The position numbers were made by a program, and so were the translations under genes. 64,000 nt of DNA from Micromonospora ureilytica (GTDB lineage Bacteria; Actinomycetota; Actinomycetes; Mycobacteriales; Micromonosporaceae): contig NZ_JADOTX010000001.1 of assembly GCF_015751765.1 (NCBI RefSeq), positions 4,774,001 through 4,838,000 of the forward strand. Reading direction: 5' to 3'. The notes beneath the pieces were generated by a model that worked only from the letters and a program-made list of their open reading frames with translations, did no database searches and was not told where the DNA came from. Within the stretch, counting starts at the first letter, position 1. Every line of letters starts with the position of its first letter. Positions 12,849-13,981 of the stretch are shown piece after piece.

Positions 12849-13142
12849 ATGGTCGATCCGGAATCCGCGCGGGCGTTGCGCCCGCTGCGTCAGCTCACTC
12901 TGCCCGGCGGGCGCACCCTGCTCCGGGCCGGCCTGATCGCCGCGCTGCTCGGCCTGGCCGCCGCAGTCCTGCACACCCCGGCCGGATGCCCGCCGACAGC
13001 CGTCCCCTCCGACACACCGTCCTCGCCGGTCAGCATGGCCCGGCAGGTCGGCGAGGGCCGATCGGCCGACTCCAGGACAGGCTCTCCCGATCTGTCGGAG
13101 CTGCGGGGGTCAGTCCCAGTGCGGGGGGCGTTCGGCGAGTAG
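12849..13142 (+). CDS. Small membrane protein, possibly a truncated SAF-domain protein
   Basis: A predicted 97-residue protein from ATG 12849; a weak GGAAGG lies about 12 bases upstream. The first 50 residues look coding and conserved in style: an Arg-rich start (ALRPLRQLTLPGGRTLL) and one membrane helix (AGLIAALLGLAAAVL). The last 45 residues have a less typical composition. In related actinomycetes a SAF/CpaB-like protein of about 200 residues with such an N-terminus often lies near fmdB, so this may be a shortened version. That is inference. Its 3' end overlaps the convergent small gene 13110-13292 by 33 bases. Confidence 0.45.
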   Translation: MVDPESARALRPLRQLTLPGGRTLLRAGLIAALLGLAAAVLHTPAGCPPTAVPSDTPSSPVSMARQVGEGRSADSRTGSPDLSELRGSVPVRGAFGE

Positions 13143-13292
13143 CCAGTCGTCGTTGCCGCCCGACCGCTCGCCCCAACCACTGTCGGTGTCGTCAGAGGTC
13201 TGCTCGGGCAGCACCTTGAAGTCTTCGCTCAGGTCGACGGCGCGGTCATCGTCTCCACGTGCGCCGCGCGTGCCGGGGTCTTCGGTGCTCAC
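13110..13292 (-). CDS. Conserved small acidic protein
   Basis: Sixty residues from GTG 13292, without a clear ribosome site. The sequence is acidic and Trp-rich: DLSEDFKVLPEQTSDDTDSG, then WGERSG, and a terminal WLLAERPPHWD. Short proteins ending in a DDxWLxxERPPHW-like motif are widespread in actinobacteria and of unknown function; I recognise the pattern but not a named family. The gene lies 61 bases from the left end of the inverted-repeat element at 13354-13523, which therefore falls within its upstream region. Confidence 0.6.
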   Translation of the reverse strand: MSTEDPGTRGARGDDDRAVDLSEDFKVLPEQTSDDTDSGWGERSGGNDDWLLAERPPHWD

Positions 13293-13353
13293 GAGCGGCA
13301 AGACTAGCGCAGCCACGGTCGGCGGACCGGGCCGCCGACCGTGGGCTCGCCGG

Positions 13354-13523
13354 CTAGGGCCTGTGTCAAAGCCCTCGGTCGAGCAGAGGCGGAGTCCAGG
13401 CGGCGGTCCGGCAAGGCGGAAGTTCGTCCGGATACCGGTGTTGTATCCGGACGAACTTCCAACGCGGACGGTCGTCGTCTGGGCCCGCCGCAGGCCGGCC
13501 AGGGGCTTTGACACAGGCCCTAG
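13354..13523. mobile_element. 170-bp MITE-like inverted-repeat element
   Basis: The two ends are perfect 21-bp inverted repeats (13354-13374 and 13503-13523; CTAGGGCCTGTGTCAAAGCC and its complement). At the centre is a second perfect 18-bp inverted repeat (13418-13435 and 13443-13460) around the 7-base loop CGGTGTT. The two 42-43 base stretches between them are also partly complementary, many differences being G-T pairs, so the whole unit can fold as one long hairpin. Both ends abut CTAG, which fits the YTAR target duplicated by IS5-type transposases. No ORF belongs to it. It lies between two divergent small genes. Confidence 0.75.
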
Positions 13524-13564: not shown

Positions 13565-13981
13565 GTGACGACCCCCAGCGGTGGCAGCACCCCGGACGAC
13601 TACTGGCGACGGCCCGACACCGGCGACGACGCGGTGGCGGACCAACCTCCCGCCGCCCCCGCGACCACACCACCGACCGGGCCCACCAGCCAACCGCCGA
13701 CCGGGCCCAGCAACCCACCGCCGAGCGAGCACGCCGGCCCCGCACCGACCGGGTCTACCAGCGGGTACTCCGGCCCGCCGCCGAGCCTGCCGCCGCCGGC
13801 GGGTTGGCGTCCACCCGTACATCTGCAGCCGGCGCCGCCGCGACAGCTGCCGCCGCAGGACATGGCCGACCTGGACGCGGTCGAGCAGCGCTCGCAGCGG
13901 GTCACCTACGGCTTCGGCGCGGCGGCCGGCGTGGTGTTGCTTGTTCTGCTCTGTCTGCTCTGCTCGCGAGTCATCTTCTGA
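13565..13981 (+). CDS. Pro-rich tail-anchored membrane protein
   Basis: A 138-residue protein from GTG 13565. About 100 residues at the N-terminus are Pro/Gly/Thr/Ser-rich with repeated PPTGP and NPPPSE-like units and appear disordered. A short charged helix follows (DMADLDAVEQRSQR), then one C-terminal membrane helix (AAAGVVLLVLLCLLCSRVIF) with no residues beyond it, so the chain is probably a tail-anchored cytoplasmic protein. The function is unknown. The frame is open further upstream, but those codons fall in the inverted-repeat element, whose right end lies only 41 bases before the start. Confidence 0.65.
   Translation: MTTPSGGSTPDDYWRRPDTGDDAVADQPPAAPATTPPTGPTSQPPTGPSNPPPSEHAGPAPTGSTSGYSGPPPSLPPPAGWRPPVHLQPAPPRQLPPQDMADLDAVEQRSQRVTYGFGAAAGVVLLVLLCLLCSRVIF

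Follow-up and report, generated by a model that had tools for sequence, protein, structure and literature searches.

The window, which is the whole 64,000-nucleotide stretch of Micromonospora ureilytica DNA analysed here, contains a nested inverted repeat at positions 13354-13523, between two small genes. We asked what this structure is, how it may have reached this site and what its folded interior stands for. We regard it as almost certain that the feature is a mobile miniature inverted-repeat transposable element (MITE) with IS5-type ends. Our preferred reading of the whole, to which we assign a probability of roughly 0.6, is an IS5-type MITE moved in trans that carries a conserved core folding on one strand, most likely as a structured RNA.

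Architecture, target site and mobility of the element

The region 13354-13523 forms one long imperfect hairpin with inverted ends of 21 bp, a central 18-bp repeat and pairing spacers. Taken over a length of 39 nt, the outer arms are 82% complementary. The first-pass annotation had described the terminal repeats, the central repeat with its 7-base loop and a weak, G-T-rich pairing of the spacer arms. All of these were recovered, and the G-T pairs are real: several of them are kept in most of 111 copies from the genus. The features of the locus are as follows.

13357-13520, + strand: mobile element proper, 164 bp, with inverted ends; limits from the TA duplication deduced from 142 non-orthologous insertion sites
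13354-13357, no strand: left CTAG, with the putative left target duplication TA at 13355-13356 (from the ends of other copies)
13520-13523, no strand: right CTAG, with the putative right target duplication TA at 13521-13522 (from the ends of other copies)
13354-13374, + strand: left terminal inverted repeat, CTAG included; perfect 21-bp match to the right end
13503-13523, - strand: right terminal inverted repeat, CTAG included
13376-13501, + strand: core common to elements with differing ends (covariance model R1)
13411-13417, + strand: GCAAGGC, 5' side of an internal loop widely kept across relatives
13418-13435, + strand: 5' arm of the central hairpin, perfect 18-bp repeat; sequence variable, pairing kept
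13436-13442, + strand: apical loop CGGTGTT, 7 bases, common in the family
13443-13460, + strand: 3' arm of the central hairpin, perfect 18-bp repeat; sequence variable, pairing kept
13461-13465, + strand: AACGC, 3' side of the internal loop, likewise widely kept
13110-13292, - strand: small gene, an open reading frame of the first-pass annotation; start codon 61 bp from the element
13565-13981, + strand: small gene, an open reading frame of the first-pass annotation; start codon 41 bp from the element

The + strand of the 170 nt folds at -133.4 kcal/mol compared with a mean of -71.6 for 200 shuffled sequences (z -13.7; no shuffle was as good), and the - strand of 13357-13520 (164 nt) reaches -110.4 (z -11.0). 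Folded as DNA, the + strand also performs well (z -10.7). In 111/111 copies the fold of the + strand is more stable than that of the - strand. The element is short (164 bp) and without coding capacity, as had been claimed before: the reading frames crossing it appear mechanical, and a simple gene caller called none there. Adjoining the insertion site, positions 13313-13344 hold a 16-bp inverted repeat (94%) without a loop.

Copies of the element are dispersed. The complete genome of the strain (7.1 Mb) contains one further full copy with 89% identity, and 80 of the 160 genomes searched in the genus, this one included, match the element at E 1e-6 with up to ten matches each, in a search that also counted antisense matches of the palindrome and scored few candidates per genome. 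Some genomes carry identical copies (for example L204-L207), which are therefore recent. Of the listed matches to the region around the window copy, only that of the strain's own genome runs through in one piece, and all 29 relatives' loci inspected (29/29) align across the junction without the element. The opposite case, a single-copy sequence conserved in position across species, which the first-pass annotation had named as an argument against a MITE, was not encountered. At C1:1188105-1188170 (L003, L005), the strain's own genome also carries a core-less relative of 66 bp whose ends are of the same kind. By eye, the left CTAG of this small element supplies the TAG stop of the upstream frame. 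Facing ends like those of the 66-bp element, 49-116 bp apart, occur in five genomes (G053, G054, G056, G134, G152). Two loci, L200 (G054 C1:1804876-1805209) and L288, contain two head-to-tail copies with one common CTAG, as if one copy had inserted into the end of the other; the two tandem copies of L288 carry different ends.

To define the target site we collected 154 copies (111 from the genus and 43 from other genera of the family), which represent 142 sites once shared flanks are removed. CTAG is kept at both ends in 54 of the 142 sites and TA at both ends in 85; in 31 of these 85 the outer bases differ from CTAG/CTAG, for example in copies with a left CTAG and a right CTAA. Since TA is found at both ends with varied outer bases, a TA duplication within a preferred CTAG fits better than a four-base duplication. 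The target duplication is thus best read, as a likely interpretation of the aligned ends, as TA inside CTAG, which would place the element proper at 13357-13520. For the window locus itself a TA duplication may be assumed from the other copies; here the element-free sites of the 29 relatives mostly read CCAG (about 22 of 29). An empty CTAG site at this locus, named in the first-pass annotation as support for mobility, was found in none of the 29 loci inspected.

A search with the end pattern matched 23 of 160 genomes of the genus, and one of the 30 loci fetched (L088) has facing ends about 1 kb apart. This locus contains a 1,049-bp IS5-family element of a relative (L088:1501-2549), bounded by CTAG on either side. 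It agrees with the window element in the first 18 bases of the left end and in the outer 14 of the right end, where the inner bases differ. Two open reading frames match DUF4096 and DDE_Tnp_1 (Pfam) and the IS5 family model NF033580 (NCBIfam) above the cut-offs. Together with the 54 sites that keep both CTAGs, these nearly identical ends back the earlier view of CTAG as an IS5-type target. We therefore agree with the annotation that the feature is a non-autonomous MITE: dispersed copies, element-free sites, perfect 21-bp terminal inverted repeats, an IS5-family element whose ends are almost identical, and the TA-in-CTAG ends of other copies all point in this direction. Such an element would have inserted into CTAG, duplicating TA, and an IS5-family transposase recognising its ends would have moved it in trans. 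DNA related to the insertion sequence of L088 is present in 83 of 160 genomes of the genus. The strain's own genome gave no DNA match to it at E 1e-50, and across the genus the presence of the insertion sequence is not associated with that of the element (38/160 genomes have both; p 0.34). The copies in the strain's own genome therefore look orphaned. For the second commonest end type we found no autonomous partner near 1 kb in 10 genomes searched with at most 1 mismatch; in these genomes, ends of this type either stand alone or face each other at a distance of 49-166 bp.

A conserved core between changing ends

Bacterial MITEs are usually viewed as transposon remains. In the alignment of the 111 copies, the ends fall into distinct types and about 126 internal bases stay alike. 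This core, the inner 126-130 bases, is a hairpin. A core search across the family found it in 17 of 44 genera and in 105 of 354 genomes, the strain's own among them. For the 147 copies whose two ends match, complete linkage yields 22, 19 or 16 end types at no more than 6, 7 or 8 differences per 20 bases, respectively, whereas single linkage merged nearly all ends.

We built the covariance model R1 from 34 diverse cores and searched wider samples. The order sample gave matches in 70 of its 397 genomes and the class sample in 17 of 345, 14 of these outside the order; among the 129 genomes of the phylum sample only the strain's own genome matched. We inspected 20 hits of the order sample, 13 of them from other families, and 28 loci of the class sample, one of which was empty and one of which was the window copy. 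By eye, most of them show a similar hairpin flanked by inverted ends that belong to other types, and a few have ill-defined ends (e.g. L343). In Streptomyces, 45 plasmid records carry relatives of one core element; the weak plasmid hits L382 and L384 are not members, judged by eye and by score.

The core was also considered as the remains of a matching insertion sequence. This was rejected: R1 gave no credible match in 30 insertion-sequence loci (best E 0.06), and the interior of the element accordingly shows no derivation from a parent insertion sequence, a derivation that not all authors require of a MITE. The IS5-family insertion sequences (NF033580; DUF4096 and DDE_Tnp_1) thus resemble the element in nearly the same terminal repeats and, in L088, in being bounded by CTAG, but differ in being about 1,049 bp long and coding and in this missing core. 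The MITE account therefore holds but is incomplete, since the interior is a core common to elements with many different ends. The element is more than a deletion derivative; its hairpin core is kept while the ends change. Core-less mini-elements exist alongside the core-bearing ones. That the family keeps a similar hairpin while switching ends suggests that the core itself has a job. It would be a conserved module, a long one-strand hairpin with a kept internal loop and not a transposase leftover, carried through many lineages with terminal repeats that have changed, presumably in adaptation to different transposases. If one core outlived many end changes, selection acts on the core, and small non-coding elements can switch transposase.

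Most relatives, though not all, retain the internal loop GCAAGGC/AACGC. Allowing one mismatch, GCAAGGC is present in 127 of the family's 147 distinct cores, in 12/13 from other families of the order and in 20/20 loci of the class; the exact AACGC occurs in 98/147, 9/13 and 13/20 cores, respectively. The remaining 20 of the 147 family cores are without GCAAGGC even with one mismatch allowed, and some lineages without it have other letters, such as GTGTGCG. The kept loop offers a concrete target in the search for a binding partner.

Apparent strand preference and alternative explanations

In the alignment of 34 cores, 24 of 39 pairs changed on both sides, 95.1% of the cells pair (82.0% after shuffling and at most 46.1% after sliding), and covariation amounts to 0.407 compared with 0.159. 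Covariation thus goes beyond the shuffled and slid controls, as in structured RNAs, with the reservation that these controls remove the effects of relatedness and of palindrome correction only in part. It does not by itself prove selection, because palindromes can keep their arms equal by template switching.

A comparison between the strands is more telling. For it we counted changes by parsimony on a tree of 160 distinct cores, using the 44 pairs that the + and - strand folds share. Standard pairs turned into G-U 147 times and into A-C 60 times (p 1e-9); such parsimony-inferred changes are partly non-independent and depend on the alignment. The excess is 75 to 19 in the central hairpin and 72 to 41 in the other pairs, and resolving ties differently changes the totals to 143 and 56. 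The asymmetry is mainly due to C-to-T changes, with 113 of these and 34 G-to-A in pairs compared with 17 and 14 at unpaired positions (Fisher p 0.02); A-to-G and T-to-C changes in pairs number 30 and 22 (p 0.33). Direct pair counts in the 111 copies give 693 GT and 118 AC cells, a count based on the + strand's own fold and therefore biased that way. Since the changes to G-U exceed those to A-C, the fold of one strand seems to be favoured. Selection of the core on one strand is therefore supported but not proven.

These counts bear directly on an ordinary MITE, in which a functionless core was spread by descent and horizontal transfer while its arms were equalised by template switching during replication. 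Four of the 160 distinct cores suggest that such switching happens: in L186, L187, L193 and L203 the apical loop is inverted (AACACCG for CGGTGTT), which points to strand switching inside the hairpin. Our script had flagged six flipped loops, two of which (L280, L298b) were false by eye. The core-less mini-elements, the identical recent copies in some genomes and the lineages with a different internal loop would also suit a core without function. But template switching is blind to the strand and would remove G-T pairs, in conflict with the ratio found in the central hairpin, and most class-level members retain the internal loop. We consider a functionless core rather unlikely.

The asymmetry could also reflect selection of a folded single DNA strand rather than of an RNA, for example on the lagging strand or during a DNA-transfer step. 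G-T is the more stable mismatch in DNA hairpins too, the + strand folds stably as DNA, and the copies show no bias relative to host transcription (see below). But IS5-type transposition uses double-stranded DNA, and nothing in our data points to a single-stranded step, so that we regard a selected DNA strand as improbable. In our preferred reading, the core would be a structured RNA, or with lower probability a single strand of folded DNA, and would aid persistence or movement of the element. No known RNA family was recognised in it: the window copy and 8 relatives gave no match in Rfam 15 at the gathering score. We found neither a promoter-like site nor a terminator-like site with a T-run.

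Concerning the genes next to the element, neither 13110-13292 nor 13565-13981 has a Pfam match. The gene caller missed the former and called only 13862-13981 of the latter; the DNA around 13110-13292 is 85-94% alike in many relatives. In the intergenic region that holds the insertion site, a relative (locus L111) contains a 37-bp tandem repeat (1439-1524) with a unit like the element-free site. The genes near all copies were called with the same simple codon-position caller, which misses short genes. By its calls, the genes on the two sides converge at 61 of the 142 sites and diverge at 12. The window copy lies between divergent genes according to the open reading frames of the first-pass annotation, whereas the caller classed it between two genes of the same direction. 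The TAG stop of a neighbouring gene is located inside an end of the element at 78 of 142 sites, compared with 19 of 98 other CTAGs taken from the same flanks, shared flanks included (odds ratio 5.1, p 3e-8). Insertion into CTAG, often a TAG stop codon, would spare the reading frame of the neighbour and could be a way for such elements to remain nearly harmless. The stop is on the left side alone at 37 and on the right side alone at 28 sites (p 0.32). There is thus no orientation bias, and the favoured strand does not depend on which gene reads into the element. For the same reason we rejected the core as a 3'-UTR element of the gene ending at it.

The preference for stop codons and for convergent genes would also be expected if the element, once inserted, shielded convergent genes by acting as an insulator or as a transcription terminator in both directions, and both strands fold very stably. 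But the hairpin has no T-run, a terminator needs neither the kept internal loop nor a favoured strand, an orientation bias is missing, and the window copy lies between divergent genes by the annotated frames. We therefore hold this function to be quite improbable. Finally, a native cis-regulatory structure controlling the two small genes, suggested by the distances of 61 bp and 41 bp to their start codons, was rejected as hardly credible, since the locus is kept without the element in 29 of 29 inspected relatives and copies are found elsewhere.

Known systems and members beyond actinobacteria

REP/BIME palindromes are likewise intergenic and present in many copies, but they are shorter, have no TA-duplicating IS5-type ends and are tied to another type of transposase, the RAYTs. 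MITEPsy1 of Pseudomonas syringae pv. phaseolicola (100 bp, 18-nt ends, reported 4-nt duplication; PMC3189936) is similar in being short and non-coding, with a suggested IS5 origin and insertion at CTAG or YTAA. It differs in its 4-nt duplication, and neither a structured core nor alternative ends appear in the parts of its description available to us (PMC3189936). QMITE1 is described with variable ends and a conserved core, and QMITE1 and QMITE2 are stable hairpin MITEs tied to small-RNA loci; compared by description only, and from part of that source, they have another host and other direct repeats (PMC5896051). In open-licence full text we recognised no paper describing the core found here.

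We then ran the pattern CCGGCAAGGCGG, 34-46 bases, CAACGC, N, GCCGG on GTDB contigs, which yielded at least 120 stretches, 80 of them listed. Together with one viral hit, 81 hits were considered, and 74 were testable because 7 lay too close to the end of the locus. TA-bounded inverted ends of 18 bp surround 39 of the 74 testable hits and 0 of 356 control positions, and 37 of the 39 spans measure 163-169 bp. For the other 35 of 74 hits, the test used found no TA-bounded ends; it requires TA, as spurious far ends appear otherwise. Hits in Burkholderia stagnalis, Pseudomonas seleniipraecipitans, Vogesella and one viral contig have no TA-bounded ends and were rejected as chance hits. Inverted ends enclose hits in two Salinisphaera species and in metagenome-assembled genomes (MAGs) of a Methylophaga, a deltaproteobacterium and a member of the Binatia. 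In the Binatia MAG these ends match but carry no TA; each of the others has TA at one end or at both.

A shorter module of the core sits in bounded elements of Salinisphaera, Methylophaga and the deltaproteobacterium. At E 0.01 the module model matches 13 and 78 times in the two Salinisphaera genomes, 2 times in Methylophaga, 25 times in the deltaproteobacterium and once in the Binatia; these E-values are rough, and the 19 loci viewed settle only part of the ends. In the alignment A3 of 49 modules the loop motif is nearly invariant, which is partly built in by the choice of rows, since 19 come from the pattern search that fixes the loop letters and all were placed by a motif finder allowing at most 2 substitutions; the loop counts given above were made independently of this finder. 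A3 leaves out 6 of 55 modules, namely L300, L334 and L340, which the finder had misplaced, and the near-repeats L378, L469 and L472. It is conceivable, though less likely than not, that the element belongs to a class of non-autonomous transposons that spans phyla and is defined by a structured RNA, in which the GCAAGGC/AACGC loop would be recognised by a conserved cellular or transposon partner. Its members would have an almost constant length of about 165 bp in actinobacteria and would have changed their ends repeatedly to exploit different IS5-type transposases.

The Planctomycetales MAG locus L399 is not among the hits that failed for TA-bounded ends and may be a member in another phylum. 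In the Salinisphaera genome with 78 module matches (G1102), the module at L470 lies within a longer element of about 290 bp.
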